DNA of 35,038 nt from Thermoleophilia bacterium (GTDB lineage Bacteria; Actinomycetota; Thermoleophilia; Gaiellales; JAICJC01): contig JAICJC010000026.1 of assembly GCA_025928655.1 (NCBI GenBank), positions 1 through 35,038 on the forward strand, given 5' to 3'. Each line of letters opens with the position of its first letter. The stretch's first letter is position 1. The notes under the pieces were generated by a model. The model was not told the DNA's origin and did not search any database. It worked only from the letters and a program-made list of their open reading frames with translations. A program made the position numbers and the translations under genes. This document shows positions 1 to 33,207 of this stretch, in pieces.

Positions 1-870
1 ACGCGCCCGTAGCTCAGGGGATAGAGCGCTGCCCTGCGGAGGCAGAGGCCGCACGTTCGAATCGTGCCGGGCGCATGGGTCAACCGCGTCGGAGTCTTCG
101 TCAGGCGCGCCGAGTCGGAGAGCATCCACCCCGGCGCGGACAAGGGCACCGCGTATCTGTTCGCCCATCCAAGCGTTATCCGTTTCGCCTGAATCCCATG
201 TATGGATCCCGGCCTGAGGGAAGTCCTTGACAGCGGACAAGACGGCATCCCCAAGACCCTCGATTCCACGAAGCCCCGCGTACAAAGCGACGCTATCGCC
301 ACGCCGGTTTGCGGCGCGCATCATCTCGCCAAGAAGACCGAAGCGAAAAACAACCGAGCCTGTCTGCCCTCGACGTAGCGTCGCTTCCGCCCCATCGACC
401 ACGAGCTTGCCGAACGAGACAGGGGCGGTGTACCTCAGAACGGTGGCAGGAATCGTGATCGCCGTTGAGGCCAGGACGAACGCTGACGCGAGCGCCGTCG
501 TCGCGACCGCCGCGGTAACCCACCCCGCCGGTTGGCCCGAACCCGGAATCAAACCAGCCAAGAACAGTGGCACGATCGTCACAAGCAGCGAGCGGACGAC
601 AAGGCGCAGCACCATTTCGTCGTTGAGCATCATCAACGCCGCTCGCATCCCATACGCCCCCACCGCAAGCTGAGCAATGACGAGCGTGGAACCCACGATG
701 AACACGAACACCGCGATCATCGTGACTGGCACCACCTGTACAAGGCTCTGTAGCCCGGCTGTGGTGCTGACGAGCCACGAGGGTGCGAATGCCCACTGGA
801 GGATCCAGACGACAGCCCAGAAGGCGACGAAGCGGAGTATGACGCCTCGAAGAAGCCCCGGCGTCATCAT
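1..870 (-). CDS. Membrane protein with four N-terminal membrane segments; frame runs through the antisense tRNA and off the window
   Basis: This minus-strand frame opens with ATG at 870 and stays open to base 1 (290 codons with no stop). The N-terminal half has four hydrophobic segments, at about residues 10-30, 47-72, 88-105 and 115-140. A soluble cytoplasmic-looking domain of about 120 residues follows. The start overlaps the stop of the upstream small frame (ATGA at 867-870). From about codon 262 the frame passes into the antisense of the tRNA, giving the tail RHDSNVRPLP typical of antisense tRNA translation. The native C-terminus was therefore probably lost when the segment was joined to the tRNA. 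I do not recognise the family; a DUF2254-like relationship was considered but not supported. Confidence 0.7.
   Translation of the reverse strand, partial: MMTPGLLRGVILRFVAFWAVVWILQWAFAPSWLVSTTAGLQSLVQVVPVTMIAVFVFIVGSTLVIAQLAVGAYGMRAALMMLNDEMVLRLVVRSLLVTIVPLFLAGLIPGSGQPAGWVTAAVATTALASAFVLASTAITIPATVLRYTAPVSFGKLVVDGAEATLRRGQTGSVVFRFGLLGEMMRAANRRGDSVALYAGLRGIEGLGDAVLSAVKDFPQAGIHTWDSGETDNAWMGEQIRGALVRAGVDALRLGAPDEDSDAVDPCARHDSNVRPLPPQGSALSPELRAR
3..75 (+). tRNA. tRNA-Arg, anticodon GCG
   Basis: A full cloverleaf folds: a 7-bp acceptor stem (3-9 with 68-74), D stem GCTC/GAGC, anticodon stem CTGCC/GGCAG (29-33 with 41-45), loop CTGCGGA and T stem GCACG/CGTGC (51-55 with 63-67). The discriminator base is A75 and CCA is not encoded. 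The anticodon at 36-38 reads GCG, which decodes the Arg codon CGC. Most bacteria use ACG, converted to ICG, for this box, so G34 is unusual. The 3' part of this gene is repeated three more times downstream, which marks it as an integration target. Confidence 0.93.
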
Positions 871-1838: not shown

Positions 1839-2150
1839 TCATGCCGCCTGATCTTGGGCGGCGTGGGTGTGATGGTATTCGGCTTCGTATTCGTCGGGGC
1901 TGAGGTAGCCGAGCGCGCTGTGGGCGCGGATCGGGTTGTAGAAGGCTTCGATGTAGTCGAAGATCGCCAGCCGGGCCTGGTCTCGCGTCCGGAAGATGTG
2001 CCGGCGGACGAGCTCGGTCTTGATCGTGCCGATCGCGCTTTCCATGAGCGCGTTGTCCCAGGGGTCGCCGATGCGGCCCATGCTGGGGATGATGGCGGCG
2101 TCGCGGAGGGTGCGGCCGACCAGCAGGCTTCCGTACTGCCCGAGTTCAAC
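1839..2150 (-). pseudogene. IS3-family transposase (OrfB) C-terminal remnant
   Basis: The frame encodes the C-terminal part of an IS3-type DDE integrase core. It contains GDPWDNALMESAIGTIKTEL, including the catalytic Asp-Asn and Glu region, and ends with the family signature YIEAFYNPIRAHSALGYLSP. The N-terminal half, with the first catalytic Asp and the OrfA part, is missing, and upstream sequence in this frame is unrelated. The remnant has about 100 of the usual 280 or so OrfB residues and cannot be active. No clear terminal inverted repeats were found. Confidence 0.85.
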
Positions 2151-2270
2151 CGGTCGTCGCAACACTGCCGGTGTTGGGATGGATCGTAGTGCGTCGGTCT
2201 GCGGTTTCGTGATCTGGTGGTGAGCGGTGCGGGCATCAAGTGGTGTCACATGTCGGATGTGGATGACTTC

Positions 2271-3688: not shown

Positions 3689-4783
3689 TTAGGCCCAGCC
3701 TAGGCGCTTGAAGATGATGAGCAGGATGACGAGTGCGGCGAGCTCCGTGCCCACGCCGAGTCCGATGAAGGTTTGCCAGTCGGCGATGTGATTGACCTCG
3801 AACCCGAAGTTTTGGCCGAAGAACCCGGTGATCCAACTCAGAGGCAAGAAGATCGTCGCGATCACGGCGAGCTGCTTCATGACGGAGTTGAGCCGGTTGG
3901 AAACCGTGGAGAGATAGACGTCCATCGCCCCGGTCAGGAGGTCGCGGTAGCTGTCGATCAGGTCGCTGATGCGGATCAGGTGGTCGTACACATCGCGAAA
4001 ATAGCGGTCGTCCTCCTCAGCCATCCCGGGCAGATCCGCTACGCCCCCCATGAGGCTCGCGAACGCGTCGCGCTGGGGGGTGACCGCCTTGCGCATGCCG
4101 ACGAGCAGCCGTTTCATCTGGAAGATCTCCTGCAGCTGTTTGTCGTCGGCCTTGGTGAAGATCGCGTTTTCAAGGTCGTCGATGCGGTCGTCGAAGTCGG
4201 CCAGGATCGGGAAGAAGCTGTCGACGAGGCCGTCGATGATCCGGTAGAGCAGCAGCGATGGTCGATCGATCGGCGCCTTGCGCTTGGCGTAGCGCTTTCT
4301 GATCTCGGCAAAGGCCGGGCAGTCGTCGCGGTGGACGGTGACAAGGAAGCGCTCCGAGTAGAAGCAGTGCACCTCGACCAGTCGGTCATCGTCGGGGACG
4401 GCGCCATAGACGACCAGGAACACGAAGTCGTCGTACTCGTCGATCTTCGCCCGCTGGTCGAAGTGCTCGGAGTCCTCGACGGCGAGTGGGTGGAATTTGA
4501 AGACGTCGCGGAGGGTCTCGAAGTCCGCGCTGCCTGGCCGGTCGAGGTCAAGCCAGAAGAACCCGTCCCGCGCGAGCAGCTTCGCCACCGTCTCGCGGCC
4601 GAAGTCCATCGTGCTACTGCCGTTGTCGTGAAAGACGTGGCAGCTCGATGGTCGGTGCCGGCCGCTCGCCTCGGGCGCATCGTCGGATCGCCTGTCCGCG
4701 AGCGTCCCGGCGCCACCGGGGCCACTGGGTGATGCGTCGTCTGCGATGTACCGATCGTACTGTCCAGCCAGGCACTCGGCCAC
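3689..4783 (-). CDS. CorA-family divalent cation transporter, GQN variant
   Basis: CorA proteins form pentameric Mg2+/Co2+ channels with a large cytoplasmic domain and two C-terminal helices. Here the soluble domain (HPLAVEDSEHFDQRAKIDEY, then the long helix DFDDRIDDLENAIF) is complete. It is followed by TM1 (IATIFLPLSWITGFFG) and TM2 (LAALVILLIIF) and a short basic tail. The canonical selectivity motif GMN is GQN in this protein (FFGQNFG). The first 58 residues before MDFGRET are poorly conserved; the GTG at 4783 could be replaced by the ATG at 4609, although family similarity seems to begin slightly upstream of that ATG. Confidence 0.9.
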   Translation of the reverse strand: MAECLAGQYDRYIADDASPSGPGGAGTLADRRSDDAPEASGRHRPSSCHVFHDNGSSTMDFGRETVAKLLARDGFFWLDLDRPGSADFETLRDVFKFHPLAVEDSEHFDQRAKIDEYDDFVFLVVYGAVPDDDRLVEVHCFYSERFLVTVHRDDCPAFAEIRKRYAKRKAPIDRPSLLLYRIIDGLVDSFFPILADFDDRIDDLENAIFTKADDKQLQEIFQMKRLLVGMRKAVTPQRDAFASLMGGVADLPGMAEEDDRYFRDVYDHLIRISDLIDSYRDLLTGAMDVYLSTVSNRLNSVMKQLAVIATIFLPLSWITGFFGQNFGFEVNHIADWQTFIGLGVGTELAALVILLIIFKRLGWA

Positions 4784-4806
4784 GAACGAAGGCGGCGGAT
4801 CATGCC

Positions 4807-4992
4807 TTACGCGTACGGTGGTCGATCAGGTGAGCCGTGGCCGTTCACGGTTCGTAAATACAGATCGTCACCGAGGCGGACGAGCGGGATCATGACGGGT
4901 TTCGCGGCGTCCCGTTACTGCGACCTGGCGCAAGGTCAATCTGGTGGGCGGCATCCATTTGCGTCGAGCTCCTCGAGCGCCCATGTCGTCAT
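4807..4992 (-). pseudogene. DUF2255-like protein, frameshifted
   Basis: ATG at 4992 has a near-perfect AGGAGG ribosome site 6-7 nt upstream and opens with MTTWALEEL, the usual start of DUF2255-type proteins. The frame stops after 18 codons. The rest of the domain continues in other frames, ending in PVMIPLVRLGDDLYLRTVNG, which matches the family core (VGDDLYVRS...). At least two frame changes and a missing C-terminal end (WFRG region) show decay, although single-base assembly errors could explain part of it. Confidence 0.6.
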
Positions 4993-5267
4993 CGTTGTCC
5001 TCCTCTGGCCGCTAAGGGCGGATGAGCCCTGGAGCGCTCGATCCACCGGCTCCATGGGAGGACCGCCCGCCCGGCGTTGACGGTTGCCATGACCCAACGA
5101 TTTGTCCCTAGGATCGGTCCGTGGCGCCGCCCGCGGCGGGTGGCCTCGAACGACATAACCAAGTCAGCCACCGTGCCCGGCCGCCTCGCCATCAACAGGC
5201 GAAAGGCCCCGCAGCGGGTGTCCGCTGGGAGCCTTCCCAAAGCCGTTAACGGACGCGGGGCGCCCCG

Positions 5268-5688
5268 TCAGGGCTGTCCGAAAGCCGTAGTGGGCGGACC
5301 TGAACCGGGCCCGTAGTGGGCGACCTCTTCGCCTAGCGTGATTGTATCATAAATCACGAGTGCTTGCATGGTGGTGCCGCGGCGGTACACGACTCGCTCG
5401 AGCCGGCGGCGTCGGTCGGGGCCGGGGAGGCCGCCCTCTTCTTCCCACCGCTTGAGATCGGCGCGCGACTGCTCGGGAGGCGTGGGCTCGGGTGAGGCGA
5501 TCACGTTCTCGCGGTGCCCGCAGTCGCCGCAGATCCACGCCTCGATGCTGCCGCTGGGGCGCATGTCGCGATCCGCGACCATGTCCTCGATCGTTGTGCG
5601 GGGTCACCAGTGGGGCGTTGTGTGCCCGCACACCGGGCAGTAACGATCTTGGCGAGGCGGTATCCTCAGGAGGCGGTTCGGTATCCAT
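5268..5688 (-). pseudogene. Two-knuckle zinc-ribbon protein broken by a frameshift and an in-frame TGA
   Basis: The frame read from about 5697 contains RYCPVCGHTTPHW, then TGA (5604-5606), then PRTTIEDMVADRDM and SIEAWICGDCGHRENV. The two CxxCGH knuckles flanking the stop look like one zinc ribbon. The only good start codon upstream (ATG 5688) is in a different frame, so one frameshift is also needed. The shorter frame from ATG 5582 keeps a single knuckle, an Arg/Glu-rich middle and a 104-residue length, and may still be translated. The function is unknown. Confidence 0.5.
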
Positions 5689-5725
5689 GTCGTGGGGGTC
5701 TCTCAACCAGCTCCCTGAGGTGGAG

Positions 5726-6136
5726 CTACAGTTGCCGCGACGACCAAAGCAAGGCCGCCAGGGTCACGGAGGTAACTCCGACCGCCAGACCGACGATCCA
5801 GCCCGTGACGTCCTGGCTGACGAGTGCTGCGCCCAGGATCGTGGCGATGCCGATGATCCCGCCCGTCGCGACCACGCGCATGGATGCGCGTTCGATCCTG
5901 GTACGGCGCCGTTCTCGTCCCGGCACCATGCCTTGAGGGCGGGGCTCGTGCCGACCGGGCCCAGGCTCGGCCGGCGGAATTCCGCCTCCGGCCGGGTCGA
6001 TCGGTTCGTTGGGCACCGCGTCCCCCGGGGGACGCTCACCTGGTGGATCTGAGGCCACGATGAGTAGGGTATCAATGGCCGCGTCCTGCCTGACTGACGG
6101 TCCCGGCGGTCGTGCATCTACCCGCTCTGCTGCCAT
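5726..6136 (-). CDS. Small protein with two C-terminal membrane segments
   Basis: The 136-residue product begins with a Pro/Gly-rich, probably disordered cytoplasmic region of about 80 residues. Two hydrophobic helices follow, VVATGGIIGIATILGAALV and WIVGLAVGVTSVTLAALLW, ending in a short basic tail SSRQL. From memory, similar short tail-anchored hairpin proteins occur in Solirubrobacterales; no function is known. It is divergent from the GH15 gene with about 95 bp between the starts, so the two may share a control region. Confidence 0.65.
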   Translation of the reverse strand: MAAERVDARPPGPSVRQDAAIDTLLIVASDPPGERPPGDAVPNEPIDPAGGGIPPAEPGPGRHEPRPQGMVPGRERRRTRIERASMRVVATGGIIGIATILGAALVSQDVTGWIVGLAVGVTSVTLAALLWSSRQL

Positions 6137-6231
6137 GCCGCTCGAGACGGGTCGCGAGGAGGTGTGCCCGGTCGCGCGCCGCGCCGGTCGGTGTATGGCG
6201 AGGCTGCGGTACGGATCTGGAACCGGATAGG

Positions 6232-8046
6232 GTGGCGGTCGTGGCCCGGATCGAGGAGTACGCGCTGATCGGTGATCTGCAGACGGCGGCGTTGGTCAGC
6301 CGGGACGGCTCGATCGACTGGTGTTGTTTTCCGCGGTTCGACTCGGGCGCCTGTTTCGCGGCGCTCTTGGGCGGGCCTGAGCATGGCCGATGGATGGTCG
6401 CGCCGGCGCGTCCGATGAAGGTGACTCGCCGGTATCGGAGTGACACGCTGATCCTGGAGACGGTGTTTGAGTCAGACGCGGGGTCGGTGCGCGTCATCGA
6501 TTTCATGCCGCCCAGGGGCCGGGCGCCGGACATCGTGCGGATCGTCGAGGGGCTGAGCGGCGTGGTGGCGATGCGCGTCGAGTTGGTGATCCGGTTTGAT
6601 TTTGGGCGCATCCTCCCGTGGATGCGGCGCGTCGATGACGCCCGGGTTGCGATCGCAGGTCCCGACGCCCTCTGTCTGCGCACCCCGGTCGAGGTACGTG
6701 GCCGGGACATGACGACGGTGGCCGAGTTCACGGTCACCGCGGGCGAGCGCATCCCGTTCGTGTTGACCTGGTTCCCATCGCACGAGGACCTGCCGGCGGC
6801 GATCGACGCGGAGCGGGCACTCACCGACTCCGAGGAGTACTGGCTCGGGTGGGGGCGCGCCGGCGACCGCGTCGGCGACTACCACGACGAGGTGCACCGG
6901 TCGTTAGTGGTCTTGAAGGCGCTGACCTACGCACCGACCGGGGGCATCGTGGCGGCGCCGACGACGTCGCTGCCCGAAGCCTTCGGGGGGCTGCGCAACT
7001 GGGATTACCGCTTCTGCTGGCTACGCGATACGACGCTCACGCTGCTTGCGATGCTGCAGACCGGTCACCGGGAGGAGGCCGAGGGCTGGGAGCGCTGGCT
7101 CCTACGAGCGGTCGCGGGCGACCCGGCTGACGTGCAGATCATGTACGGCCTCGCCGGTGAGCGGCGCCTGGACGAACGCGAGCTCGACTGGCTGCCGGGA
7201 TACGAAGGCTCGCGGCCGGTCCGGGTCGGGAACGCCGCATCGATCCAGCTGCAGCTCGACGTGTACGGCGAGGTCGTCGAGGCGCTCTACCAGAGCCGCG
7301 TCCACGGTGTGCCCGCCGACGCCGACGTATGGTCGTTGACGCGCATACTGCTCGGCTGGCTCGAGCACGGATGGCGGCTAAAGGACGCTGGGCTATGGGA
7401 GGTGCGCGGGCCGCCGCGACACTTCACCCACTCCAAGGTGATGGCCTGGGTCGCCTTCGACCGCGGCGTGCGTTTCCACGAGGAGTTCGGCGCGCGCGAG
7501 CCGGTCGGGCGCTGGCGGCGGATCCGCGACGAGATCCGCACCGACGTCCTGGCGCACGCCTGGAACGACCAGCGGCAGGCGTTTACGCAGTCGTACGGCG
7601 CCGATGAGCTCGACGCGAGCATCCTTCTGATGCCGCTCGTCGGCTTCCTCGCGGCGACCGATCCGAGGATGGTCTCGACCGTCGCCGCGATACGACGCGA
7701 GCTCACCATCGACGGTCTCGTCCTTCGCTACCGCCCAAAAGATGGAAACGTCGACGGTCTGCCGGTCGGCGAAGGCGTCTTCCTGGCGTGCTCGTTCTGG
7801 CTCGCCGAAGTGCTCGCCATGCAGGGGGCGCACGACCAGGCGCGCGAGCTGTTCGAGCGGCTGCTCGACCTGCGCAACGACGTCGGCCTGCTCTCCGAGG
7901 AATACGACCCCGCCAGCCATCGCCAGCTCGGCAACTTCCCCCAAGCCTTCAGCCACCTCGCACTGGTAAGCGCCGCGCTCACGCTCGGCCACGACCAGGG
8001 CCTCCGCCGACCGGAAACCCTTCATCAACCGAAGCCGCGCTCGTAG
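6232..8046 (+). CDS. Glycoside hydrolase family 15 (glucoamylase/trehalase-like)
   Basis: GH15 enzymes hydrolyse alpha-glucosidic bonds with inversion (glucoamylase, trehalase, dextran glucosidase). The product has the N-terminal beta-sandwich start RIEEYALIGDLQTAALVSRD and GSIDWCCFPRFDS. It then has the (alpha/alpha)6 barrel with GGLRNWDYRFCWLRD, WLPGYEGSRPVRVGNAA and the C-terminal LLSEEYDP, which carries the usual catalytic Glu, followed by NFPQAFSHLAL. The frame is open from 6112, but similarity begins at ARIEEYALIG, so GTG 6232 or 6241 is preferred. Length is about 600 residues, normal for the family. No signal peptide is seen, so it is probably cytoplasmic and acts on trehalose or short glucans. 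Confidence 0.93.
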   Translation: MAVVARIEEYALIGDLQTAALVSRDGSIDWCCFPRFDSGACFAALLGGPEHGRWMVAPARPMKVTRRYRSDTLILETVFESDAGSVRVIDFMPPRGRAPDIVRIVEGLSGVVAMRVELVIRFDFGRILPWMRRVDDARVAIAGPDALCLRTPVEVRGRDMTTVAEFTVTAGERIPFVLTWFPSHEDLPAAIDAERALTDSEEYWLGWGRAGDRVGDYHDEVHRSLVVLKALTYAPTGGIVAAPTTSLPEAFGGLRNWDYRFCWLRDTTLTLLAMLQTGHREEAEGWERWLLRAVAGDPADVQIMYGLAGERRLDERELDWLPGYEGSRPVRVGNAASIQLQLDVYGEVVEALYQSRVHGVPADADVWSLTRILLGWLEHGWRLKDAGLWEVRGPPRHFTHSKVMAWVAFDRGVRFHEEFGAREPVGRWRRIRDEIRTDVLAHAWNDQRQAFTQSYGADELDASILLMPLVGFLAATDPRMVSTVAAIRRELTIDGLVLRYRPKDGNVDGLPVGEGVFLACSFWLAEVLAMQGAHDQARELFERLLDLRNDVGLLSEEYDPASHRQLGNFPQAFSHLALVSAALTLGHDQGLRRPETLHQPKPRS

Positions 8047-8152: not shown

Positions 8153-8377
8153 ATGATGACGCACACCGCCTTCCATGCCGAAAAGCCGATCGTCACGACC
8201 CATCCTGTGAACGGCGGCGACCCGCTCATCTTCACGATCACACCCACCGCCGACCCCACCCTGGTACGGCCGTGGGATCAAGAGCACAAGAACCGAATCG
8301 CGGTGGTGTGCCCCGATCTCGCGAACCTCACCGGCGTCATCGACGCCGGCTGCGCGCAGGTGGCGCCGGGCGTATGA
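8153..8377 (+). pseudogene. Truncated paralogue of the slipin-operon protein (16589-16990)
   Basis: The frame MTHTAFHAEKPIVTTHPVNG, then LIFTITPT and TLVRPWDQEHKNRIAVVCPD, matches the minus-strand protein at 16589-16990 almost residue for residue. It lacks a 17-residue Trp-rich insert and loses all similarity after GVIDA, ending 9 codons later. At DNA level 8165-8346 is an inverted repeat of about 16764-16985. It is therefore a duplicated copy with its C-terminal half lost. Whether the short 74-residue product is made is unknown, and no strong ribosome site is visible. Confidence 0.6.
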
Positions 8378-16421: not shown

Positions 16422-16592
16422 TTATGGCGCGTTCAGCTTCCGTGCCGCGTCGATGGCGGAATTCCTGGTGATGTGGCCGGACACGCTTCGCGGGGGAATT
16501 GACGAGCGGTCGATGACGTAGAAGCCGTCGGTCGTACGGCGGCCGTTTGGCAGTTCCTGCGGTATGCGTCGGTACGTGACGACGTACCTCAT
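16422..16592 (-). CDS. Small basic protein, 56 aa, last gene of the slipin operon
   Basis: The frame begins MRYVVTYRRIPQELPNGRRT and continues TTDGFYVIDRSS to SAIDAARKLNAP, ending TAA at 16422-16424. Its ATG overlaps the stop of the upstream gene (ATGA at 16589-16592), the same coupling seen between the two genes before it. That coupling and the protein-like, low-stop composition support a real gene. No family is recognised; there is no membrane segment. Confidence 0.6.
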   Translation of the reverse strand: MRYVVTYRRIPQELPNGRRTTDGFYVIDRSSIPPRSVSGHITRNSAIDAARKLNAP

Positions 16593-16990
16593 GAGATAAC
16601 CATCTCGTGCCTGTCGTAGCGCGCGTCGATCGCGTCGCGGATGTCGATTAGGTACTGCACTCGTTCGTCCTGGTCGGTCTTGAGGTGCGCCGCCGAGTCG
16701 CGTTGGGGAGCGAGTTCTGCCGCGTAGTCAGCGTTTGACTGTGAGACGGCGCGGTCGATCGCGTCGATCACGCCGGCGAAGTCTGCGAGATCGGGGCACA
16801 CCACGGCGATTTGGTTCTCGTGCTCTTGATCCCACGGCCGTACCAGGGTGGGGCCGGCGGTGGCGTGGTGGCGCAATGCCCGCCACCACCATCTCGGCGG
16901 TGAGGGGGTGATCGTGAAGATGAAGGCGTCACCGCCGTTCACGGGATGCGTGGTCAGGATTGGCTTGTTTGCGTGGAAGTCCGTGTTCAT
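16589..16990 (-). CDS. Uncharacterised protein coupled to slipin, paralogous to 8153-8377
   Basis: The 133-residue product reads MNTDFHANKPILTTHPVNGG, then FIFTITPSPPRWWWRALRHH, TLVRPWDQEHENQIAVVCPD and a charged helical end DERVQYLIDIRDAIDARYDR. The Trp-rich insert is absent from the truncated copy at 8153-8377. Its ATG overlaps the slipin stop and its stop overlaps the next gene, so the three are translationally coupled. No known family is recognised; no membrane segment is present. Co-expression with an SPFH membrane scaffold suggests a cytoplasmic partner of slipin, which is inference. Confidence 0.7.
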   Translation of the reverse strand: MNTDFHANKPILTTHPVNGGDAFIFTITPSPPRWWWRALRHHATAGPTLVRPWDQEHENQIAVVCPDLADFAGVIDAIDRAVSQSNADYAAELAPQRDSAAHLKTDQDERVQYLIDIRDAIDARYDRHEMVIS

Positions 16991-17829
16991 GATGTCGTCG
17001 GTTCGGGGGTGGCGATGCCGCCGTTGGTCGCGGCCGGCGTGACCGCGAACGAGCCGCCACTCGCGACGCTCTCGCGCTGCAGGAAGGCCGTCAACTCGTT
17101 GATGGTGCTCATCAGCGGTGCCGGGAAGACGACTGTCGTGTTCTTGTCGACGCCGATCTCGACCAGCGACTGCAGGTTTCGCAGCTGCAGGGCGAGCGGG
17201 TGGGCCATCATCACGTCGGAGGCGTGCGCGAGCTCTCCGGCGGCGAGCGCCTCGCCTTCCGCGGCGATGATCTTGGCGCGCTTCTCGCGCTCGGCCTCGG
17301 CCTGGCGGGCCATCGCGCGCTTCATCGTGTCGGGCAGCTGGATGTCCTTCAGCTCGACCACGGTCACCTCCACGCCCCAGTCCTCGGTCTGGACATCGAG
17401 GATGGCGCGGATGTCGCTGTTGATGCTCTCCGTCTCGGACAAGGTCTCGTCCAGCGTGTGGCGGCCGACGACCGCCCGCAGCGTCGTCTGCGCGATCTGG
17501 CTGATCGCCTCGTCGACGTTCTCGATCGCGACCACCGACCGAACGGCGTCCTTGATCCGGAAATACGCGACGGCCGAGACATCCACCGACACGTTGTCCT
17601 TGGTGATGATGCCCTGCGACTGGATCGGCATGGTCACGATCCGAAGCGACACTCGATGCACCCGGTCGACGAGCGGCGCGATGAAGATCAGGCCCGGCCC
17701 GCGGGCGCCATCCTTCACCTTCCCCAGCCGAAACTGGACGCCCCGCTCATACTGTTTCAGAATCCGAACCGACGCACAGATGGCCAACAACGCCACGACC
17801 GCGATGATGATGACGGCGACGGCGAGCAT
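16987..17829 (-). CDS. Slipin / stomatin-like SPFH protein
   Basis: SPFH proteins oligomerise on the membrane and organise microdomains. The product has an N-terminal membrane hairpin (LAVAVIIIAVVALLAICASV), then the SPFH domain: QYERGVQFRLGKV, GPGLIFIAPLVDRV, KDNVSVDVSAVAYFRI, QTTLRAVVGRHTLDE, and the coiled helix MKRAMARQAEAEREKRAKII, finishing in NTTVVFPAPL. Length (280 aa) matches prokaryotic slipins. Slipins are usually paired with an NfeD protein; here the coupled partners are two unknown genes instead. It heads a three-gene minus-strand operon with ATGA overlaps. Confidence 0.93.
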   Translation of the reverse strand: MLAVAVIIIAVVALLAICASVRILKQYERGVQFRLGKVKDGARGPGLIFIAPLVDRVHRVSLRIVTMPIQSQGIITKDNVSVDVSAVAYFRIKDAVRSVVAIENVDEAISQIAQTTLRAVVGRHTLDETLSETESINSDIRAILDVQTEDWGVEVTVVELKDIQLPDTMKRAMARQAEAEREKRAKIIAAEGEALAAGELAHASDVMMAHPLALQLRNLQSLVEIGVDKNTTVVFPAPLMSTINELTAFLQRESVASGGSFAVTPAATNGGIATPEPTTS

Positions 17830-18039
17830 GATGATCCCTTCTCATCAACCGGGGGGCGGACATCGGCAGGCTCACCGTCCTATCGTCCGGGCGCGGTTGA
17901 CAAACTCTGATGGCCAGCGTACGGGCGGCCAACAATCCCGAGCCGGTACGTACAGGAGCGGCAGCAATCTCGCCTCGGTTGGACCGGCACCACAAGAATA
18001 GCACCAACCCCTTATCGGCGCGGCTGTTTGCGTTACATC

Positions 18040-18087: not shown

Positions 18088-18264
18088 CTAGTGGGCGGCG
18101 AGCTCGCCCGCCACGTGGCGCCGCTTGGTCATCTCGGGCAGATTCTTGTGAACCCACTCTTGCGCGATCGAGTTCGAGGCCTCTGCCTCGGCGCGCGAGT
18201 TGAACACGCTGATCGGGGTGACGGCACCGTCGTCTCCTTCGGGTTTGAGCAGCTCATACGACAC
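18088..18264 (-). CDS. Small soluble protein, 58 aa
   Basis: GTG at 18264 opens the frame VSYELLKPEGDDGAVTPISV, then FNSRAEAEASNSIAQEWVHK and a basic end ending ELAAH and TAG. The composition is strongly protein-like and the frame has a stop upstream and a hairpin downstream. No family is recognised. It may be a short alpha/beta protein. There is a weak Shine-Dalgarno site. Confidence 0.55.
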   Translation of the reverse strand: MSYELLKPEGDDGAVTPISVFNSRAEAEASNSIAQEWVHKNLPEMTKRRHVAGELAAH

Positions 18265-20351: not shown

Positions 20352-20379
20352 CGCACGTTCGAATCGTGCCGGGCGCATG
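20352..20379 (+). repeat. tRNA-Arg 3'-end repeat, copy 2 (att-like)
   Basis: 28 bases here are identical to tRNA-Arg positions 50-77: the T arm, the 3' acceptor strand and two flanking bases. There is no 5' tRNA half. Same orientation as the intact gene. A perfect repeat of a tRNA 3' end is the standard mark left by a tyrosine-recombinase integration. The nucleotidyltransferase gene ends 3 bp to the right. Confidence 0.85.
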
Positions 20380-20382
20380 CAC

Positions 20383-20937
20383 TCAAGAGGCGGCCCCGTC
20401 TGCGGCCGACGACGCCAGCGCATCCACCCAACGGCGCGTCTTCTCACGGTCGGTGTCTGGCATCAAGTCGACCAGCAGCATCAACTGCCGTGTATCGACC
20501 AAGCCGGCTGCGATCGCGTCTCGGGCGTACTGGATGTCATGTTCTCGACCTGCCGCGAGCTTTGCCATGACCAGGTCGTGGACCTCCATGCACCAAGCCG
20601 TCGCCACTTCGCCGGGTTTCCGCGTGATGGCGACCACCTCGACACGGATCAAACGCGCCTCCCAACCGGCGGGCGCGCGGATGGTCTCGGGCCCGACGCC
20701 ATGTCCGTAGTAGTCGTTTGTGGCATGAAACTGGGAGCCGTCACCGATGCTGGCGTCGATCTCGACGGCGCGCTCGGGAGCGCTGCGCGGGTAGAGGTCG
20801 ACCTCCATTGATCGGAGAAGCGGCGCTGGCGGGTCGGGGTATTGACCCAGCACAGCCTGACTACCGACGACGACGACGTCGTCATTGACCACGGTCGCAG
20901 CCGCTCGAATCACATGCTCGAAGCCTTTTCGATTCAC
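20383..20937 (-). CDS. Nucleotidyltransferase of DUF6036/AbiEii-like type (probable toxin)
   Basis: The 184-residue product has a polymerase-beta-like nucleotidyltransferase core: VVVGSQAVLGQYPDP (GS motif), then SMEVDLYPR (the acidic pair), a substrate region FHATNDYYGHGVGP, and a C-terminal helical part with VHDLVMAKLAAGREHDIQYA. This is the usual architecture of DUF6036 and AbiEii-related nucleotidyltransferases, several of which are toxins in type IV-like systems. Its ATG overlaps the stop of the HTH gene (20934-20937), so the regulator is translated first. The stop lies 3 bp from the tRNA-fragment repeat. Target molecule unknown. Confidence 0.75.
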   Translation of the reverse strand: MNRKGFEHVIRAAATVVNDDVVVVGSQAVLGQYPDPPAPLLRSMEVDLYPRSAPERAVEIDASIGDGSQFHATNDYYGHGVGPETIRAPAGWEARLIRVEVVAITRKPGEVATAWCMEVHDLVMAKLAAGREHDIQYARDAIAAGLVDTRQLMLLVDLMPDTDREKTRRWVDALASSAADGAAS

Positions 20938-21641
20938 GGCGTGAACCTCTCTTCGACCTGCTCAATCAGGCGGGCACGCTCCTGCTCCGTCAGAAGCCCG
21001 GCGAACGGAGACGTCTGGCGAAGTTCGCTCGCCTGTGTTGTCTGCGCCCCGAGCCGGCGTTTCATCTGCTCAAGGGGCAGCGCGAGAACACGGCGCCATT
21101 CCGCAATCCACCGAGGGTCGACCGTGTTGTCGGCCTCCCATCGATTAAGTCGGCGTTGCGCTCTGGCGACCATGGTGGCATCAAGCCGCTCGGCGACAAG
21201 GCGATGGTATGCGAGCGAGTGCAGCTGAGCGGCTTCATGCCTTCGACGCCTTTTGGGGGGGACAAGCCTGTTGAGATCAGCCGTTTCCACGGAACGGTGG
21301 CGCCGCTGACGGATGACGGCTGATAGCGGCCGTTTCGCATCTGAACGCTCAACCTCATCGAGCAGATCCACAACGGCGCCTAGAGGGACTTCGAGGCGAT
21401 CGTCCGGGGTCAAAACGGTCGGTATGTCGCCGGAATCCACCCAGCGCTGGAATGCCGACTGAGACACACCCAGGAGTCGGGCCGCCTGGGCAGGGCGAAG
21501 TGTCTGCCCCACGACCTCACTCAGAATGTCCTGAGCTTCCACAACGTTGGCCAGGCCCGACTCGTCGAGTCCGCCGCCAGACGCCCGCTTGAGGCAGACG
21601 AGCGCTCTGATCAGCTTCTCAGATTCGGTGCGCGCCATCAT
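20934..21641 (-). CDS. HTH protein, probable antitoxin/regulator
   Basis: The 235-residue product has an N-terminal helical segment, then an excisionase/MerR-like winged HTH around residues 48-85: LRPAQAARLLGVSQSAFQRW, VDSGDIPTV, RLEVPLGAVVDLL. The C-terminal half is Arg-rich and helical (VPPKRRRRHEAA, RLNRWEADNTVDPRW). It precedes and overlaps the nucleotidyltransferase gene, as in toxin-antitoxin operons where the first product represses and neutralises. Its own upstream region is AT-rich with dyad half-sites. The antitoxin role is inference from organisation. Confidence 0.75.
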   Translation of the reverse strand: MMARTESEKLIRALVCLKRASGGGLDESGLANVVEAQDILSEVVGQTLRPAQAARLLGVSQSAFQRWVDSGDIPTVLTPDDRLEVPLGAVVDLLDEVERSDAKRPLSAVIRQRRHRSVETADLNRLVPPKRRRRHEAAQLHSLAYHRLVAERLDATMVARAQRRLNRWEADNTVDPRWIAEWRRVLALPLEQMKRRLGAQTTQASELRQTSPFAGLLTEQERARLIEQVEERFTP

Positions 21642-21785: not shown

Positions 21786-21833
21786 GGAGGCAGAGGCCGC
21801 ACGGTCGAATCGTGCCGGGCGCATGGCTCAACC
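21786..21833 (+). repeat. tRNA-Arg 3'-half repeat, copy 3 (att-like)
   Basis: 48 bases match window positions 38-85, from the tRNA anticodon loop to 10 bp past the 3' end, with two mismatches (21804 T to G in the T loop; 21827 G to C). Same orientation. It is the longest repeat and the best clue to the true core of recombination. The two mismatches show it is older than copy 2. Confidence 0.85.
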
Positions 21834-32861: not shown

Positions 32862-33043
32862 TCACCGATCGCGACACGGCAGTCGCTGCCGACCCCTCGT
32901 GCGGGGAGCGAATCGATCCCGACGATGAGCAGGCGCGTCGTCAAGCGAGAAGTTCGCTTCCAGCACCTGCTGGGTGGCACAGACGCGCCCGGGCTCTCGG
33001 CATTGACCTCGCCAGAGGGCCGCCCGACTCCCCGGTAGCGTAC

Positions 33044-33081
33044 GCAGAGGCCGCACGTTCGAACCGTGCCGGGGCGCATGG
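33044..33081 (+). repeat. tRNA-Arg 3'-half repeat, copy 4 (att-like, degenerate)
   Basis: The sequence matches window positions 42-78 (anticodon stem to just past the 3' end) with one substitution and one inserted G. The T arm is still a perfect stem, so it clearly derives from the tRNA gene. Same orientation as the other copies. It ends the third segment; the frame on its right runs into it. Confidence 0.8.
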
Positions 33082-33207
33082 CTCCCACGCAAGCTGTCGG
33101 AGTTCGTCGTACGAGAGCAGGCGCGGAGGGCCGGCGGCCGGCACGAAGCGGACGTGCCGCGCCGCCCGGCCGCGGGTGCGCCTGTCGACCAGGGTGATCT
33201 CGACCAT
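33082..33207 (-). pseudogene. N-terminal fragment of an unknown protein cut at the tRNA repeat
   Basis: ATG at 33207 opens MVEITLVDRRTRGRAARHVR, then FVPAAGPPRLLSYDELRQLA and WE, with good protein composition. At 33081 the frame runs into the antisense of the tRNA fragment (tail RFERAASAYA) and continues meaninglessly to 32941. The gene was therefore cut at the junction, as with the membrane gene at the left tRNA. No family is recognised. Confidence 0.45.

Follow-up and report, generated by a model that had tools for sequence, protein, structure and literature searches.

A slipin gene with no adjoining NfeD gene and its small downstream partner gene in two species of one Thermoleophilia genus

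Analysis of the window (the whole stretch of 35,038 nucleotides, contig 8 of a 3.69-Mb draft genome of a Thermoleophilia bacterium) revealed a slipin gene followed by a gene for a 133-aa protein. Alignment-based comparisons showed that the pair, the gene order and the upstream region are conserved in two species of the genus, and that a decayed third copy exists. We see an even chance that the two genes constitute an operon in which an NfeD-free slipin is produced together with a genus-specific small cytosolic protein that would bind the slipin assembly and tune it. The NfeD-free slipin belongs to an already described, widespread type, while the small downstream gene is uncharacterised. The features referred to below are as follows (G001 is a congeneric genome; contig 29 is from the same genome as the window).

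16987..17829, minus strand: slipin / p-stomatin (SPFH1-type), 280 aa, with a hydrophobic N-terminal segment ahead of the SPFH domain
16589..16990, minus strand: partner protein, 133 aa, with a conserved amphipathic WWWR stretch, no transmembrane segment and, by prediction, two long helices in its C-terminal part
16422..16592, minus strand: 56-aa ORF, doubtful and left out of the system
17830..18010, minus strand: upstream region of the slipin-partner pair, conserved with G001 and contig 29
8153..8356, plus strand: truncated second partner copy without the Trp-rich stretch and the C-terminal half, no adjoining slipin

The initial annotation had described three genes joined by ATGA overlaps and headed by an SPFH scaffold. 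Minus-strand ORFs of 280, 133 and 56 aa with 4-nt ATGA overlaps do occur at these positions, and the 280-aa protein is a clear SPFH/Band_7 member (E 3e-42), matching PF01145 (Band_7) over residues 23-194 with 145 bits and E 3.1e-42. The hydropathy (KD19) maximum of 3.2 at residues 1-19 indicated an N-terminal membrane segment, and, as regards oligomerisation through a C-terminal coiled coil, the charged AEAEREKRAKIIAAEGEA region is present. Identification as HflK or HflC was rejected, the NCBIfam equivalog scores being 74.1 and 68.5 against cut-offs of 159.4 and 134.4, respectively. A membrane-microdomain system, as had also been proposed, is inferred from what is ascribed to the slipin family.

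The part of the three-gene layout that did not hold is the third gene, so that one of the two coupled partners proposed, the 133-aa protein, is supported and the 56-aa ORF is not. No convincing homologue of the latter was found in 100 relatives, weak matches (E 0.01-0.04) being rejected as homologues; its GC content by codon position (0.55/0.54/0.80) gives a weak coding signal and its predicted fold is uninformative (pLDDT 50). Moreover, in the high-GC window 88 of the 179 ATGA sites (49%) begin frames that run for 56 codons or more. The 56-aa ORF is indistinguishable from a chance frame and as a gene is unsupported; it could still be an orphan gene.

Long spurious frames are numerous in this high-GC genome, and the 133-aa ORF might itself be such a chance frame and no gene. 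We hold this to be very improbable, as the substitution pattern already contradicts it. In the congeneric genome G001 a slipin gene is likewise followed by a partner ortholog, whose product is 59% identical over 121 aa; changes between the two are in excess at third positions, dN/dS of the partner core is about 0.18 (0.263/1.50, with dS close to saturation) and the GC content by codon position of the ORF is coding-like (0.65/0.44/0.81). Since G001 keeps the pair in order and dN/dS is low, the 133-aa ORF is, on comparative grounds, a real gene. The slipins of the window and G001 share 82% identity with a dN/dS of about 0.14 (0.117/0.83), and these ratios showed both proteins to be under purifying selection. 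The G001 junction is anomalous: its overlapping ATG leads into the wrong frame, and the partner is read from a TTG that directly follows the slipin stop codon, unless one T within a TTTT run results from misassembly.

The Trp-rich stretch of the 133-aa protein is PPRWWWRALRHHA. It had been described as an insert; the stretch is present, but relative to homologues nothing is inserted, the WWWR core being found in all three full-length members and absent solely from the truncated copy at 8153-8356. The amphipathic moment peaks at this stretch (PPRWWWRALRH), and no transmembrane segment was detected (KD19 maximum 1.39). Neither the 133-aa nor the 56-aa protein could be assigned convincingly to a Pfam, NCBIfam or PHROG family; the 133-aa protein gave no above-cut-off match in Pfam or NCBIfam and nothing significant in a PDB sequence search. 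An AlphaFold2 model built from two sequences (pLDDT 60) placed helices at residues 33-42, 68-93 and 100-124, suggestive of an N-terminal part that is small and rich in strands, with a short helix at the Trp-rich stretch and a pair of long helices. With this low-confidence model as query no solved fold matched at E <= 0.001, and Pfam, NCBIfam, hydropathy and fold searches revealed neither an NfeD/OB-fold domain nor transmembrane helices.

No NfeD gene was found beside the window slipin. The proposal that the small genes stand in place of NfeD goes too far: NfeD is not replaced throughout the cell, for the genome retains a canonical NfeD-slipin pair elsewhere, on contig 47, and this pair is common to G001 and a further genome, G002. 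The slipin tree splits into two fully supported clades, each on a long branch from the root as drawn. NfeD is found in the flank of 23 of the 25 loci of the sister clade and of none of the 25 loci of the window-type clade, for which mostly 1.5 kb was examined. The 25 window-type slipins comprise eight placed on the tree and 17 obtained from other families in a wider search of the class, the latter assigned by search score rather than by tree and with about 1.5 kb of flank examined. The window slipin is thus placed, from phylogeny and gene neighbourhood, in an NfeD-free clade common across the class.

Slipins of this kind were described by Hinderhofer et al. (2009), who listed 50 genomes with SPFH1 lacking NfeD, described these genes as single-gene cistrons and suggested either duplication with loss of NfeD or the use of NfeD from another operon (PMC2636767). 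The window slipin resembles them in its Band_7 domain, its N-terminal hydrophobic segment, the lack of an adjoining NfeD and the presence in the same genome of a second slipin with NfeD; it differs in that a genus-specific small gene overlaps its 3' end. The NfeD1b-slipin operon (PH1510-PH1511 type, as on contig 47) likewise is a tight two-gene unit with a slipin of the same superfamily, whereas the partner in the window is encoded downstream, has 133 aa and no transmembrane segment, and matches no NfeD or ClpP-class family.

The suggestion made in 2009 (PMC2636767), together with the canonical pair that the window's genome carries on contig 47 and shares with G001 and G002, speaks for a simpler account in which the window slipin is a duplicate that lost its NfeD and uses one encoded elsewhere, the downstream gene being irrelevant. 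This account appears unlikely: it leaves the conserved second gene unexplained, and the deep split between the slipin clades means that the window slipin is no recent duplicate.

The 133-aa family comprises four copies. Two lie directly 3' of an intact slipin gene, and a third, on contig 29, comes after a slipin gene that has lost an internal part; the fourth is the truncated fragment at 8153-8356. Three of the four known copies therefore directly follow a slipin sequence, and the outcome that the initial annotation had named as speaking against it, a family located for the most part apart from SPFH genes, was not observed. The fragment at 8153-8356 shows 66-78% identity over 76-79 aa, its missing stretch is flanked by two nucleotide matches (91% and 80%), and it is probably a remnant. 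On contig 29 the slipin start is kept, the remnant slipin tail overlaps the partner frame by ATGA, and the partner has a frame break with the WWWRALR stretch conserved. This stretch of contig 29 may be genuinely paralogous, may come from a second strain or may in part reflect misassembly. Contig 29 (L006, G000:C29) also carries, at 4457-6657, a second copy of the region of the window's GH15 trehalase-like gene (~84-94% identity), in which this gene is broken into forward and inverted pieces.

A search of genome contigs with the 133-aa partner gave the G001 record as the sole match, and a family profile run against 396 genomes of the phylum found nothing beyond the window's own genome. Weak matches in six other genomes (E 0.001-0.008) were dismissed as noise, the retrieved loci containing no slipin sequence. 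Searches of viral contigs, plasmids and phages gave no relative. The intact slipin-partner pairs known are two, both from draft genomes of one genus, and by these searches the partner looks restricted to that genus (two species so far), like a genus-level acquisition. Because of this restriction the partner did not generally replace NfeD; NfeD-free slipins, moreover, form a class-wide clade and were described in 2009.

Over about 125 nt upstream of the slipin gene, the three copies (window, G001 and contig 29) share conserved blocks. In the window's genome this region occurs at two slipin loci only and is not a repeated element; no Rfam match was found at gathering score, and the region is probably the shared promoter and leader of the pair. 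The genes flanking the pair are rearranged or lost between the window and G001. Upstream, a 58-aa ORF (18088-18264, minus strand) looks like a truncated copy of a 105-aa ABM-like protein, of which it comprises the C-terminal half; the protein is full-length in G001 (L007:6158-6475) and also occurs near the contig 29 slipin.

The wider surroundings include a tRNA-Arg gene (3-75, plus strand) whose 3' half is repeated directly at 20352-20379, 21786-21833 and 33038-33084, with matches of 28/28, 46/48 and about 89%. These repeats resemble attachment-site remnants of a composite genomic island, and the slipin pair is placed between the tRNA-Arg and the first of them. A tyrosine integrase, sought on the window contig on account of these repeats, was not found; a fragment of an rve integrase core, a transposase remnant, lies at 1839-2249 (minus strand), about 2 kb from the tRNA. 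Between two of the repeats (20383-21641, minus strand) a DUF6036 nucleotidyltransferase gene overlaps a gene for a helix-turn-helix protein, a pair that resembles a toxin-antitoxin system of the AbiE type.

The 133-aa family comes after two of the 25 window-type slipins, and 23 are without it. Several of these 23 precede genes of unrelated kinds (STAS, dodecin, MpsC, PRC-barrel, LapA-domain-like, enoyl-CoA hydratase) and some have no obvious downstream gene. Two of the partner-less slipin genes overlap the next gene, for an enoyl-CoA hydratase and a LapA-domain-like protein, by ATGA; tight overlap alone is thus no evidence of a dedicated functional pair. Such variation from genome to genome within one slipin clade is what would be expected if the 133-aa gene were a lineage-specific hitchhiker in a downstream slot that turns over freely, co-transcribed with the slipin gene and with a product that does not touch the slipin. 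This is the main rival to the adapter reading, and we consider it a serious possibility, somewhat short of an even chance. Against it, the adjacency has been held at a slipin dS of about 0.8 despite the rearranged or lost flanks, and it is found again in the third, decayed copy. A more specific form of the adapter reading, in which the 133-aa protein would be a slipin partner of a new type, a soluble adapter anchored by its Trp-rich amphipathic helix and one of several unrelated, lineage-specific partners that substitute for NfeD in this slipin clade, is put forward tentatively and seems rather doubtful.

In the operon reading with a tuning partner, the slipin, like other stomatins, would form oligomers at the cytoplasmic membrane, and coupled translation of the shared message would supply the partner. 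The partner may then bind the cytosolic side of the slipin assembly. Its amphipathic WWWRALR helix would rest at the membrane surface and its pair of long helices would dock on the slipin coiled coil, and in this way the partner may tune or direct the slipin scaffold during membrane stress. The NfeD of contig 47 may still serve the window slipin in trans. A precedent for partners other than NfeD is the SPFH protein YdjI of Bacillus subtilis, which acts with YdjG/H and PspA (PMC8581546). The likeness lies in an SPFH protein that acts with non-NfeD partners; YdjG/H are membrane integral, whereas the partner in the window is predicted to be soluble.

What bacterial slipins do without NfeD may be approached through the class-wide NfeD-free clade with its changing downstream genes. 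The clade provides a defined set for asking whether slipins recruit different client or adapter proteins, and in the 133-aa family it offers a small candidate partner that lends itself to testing.
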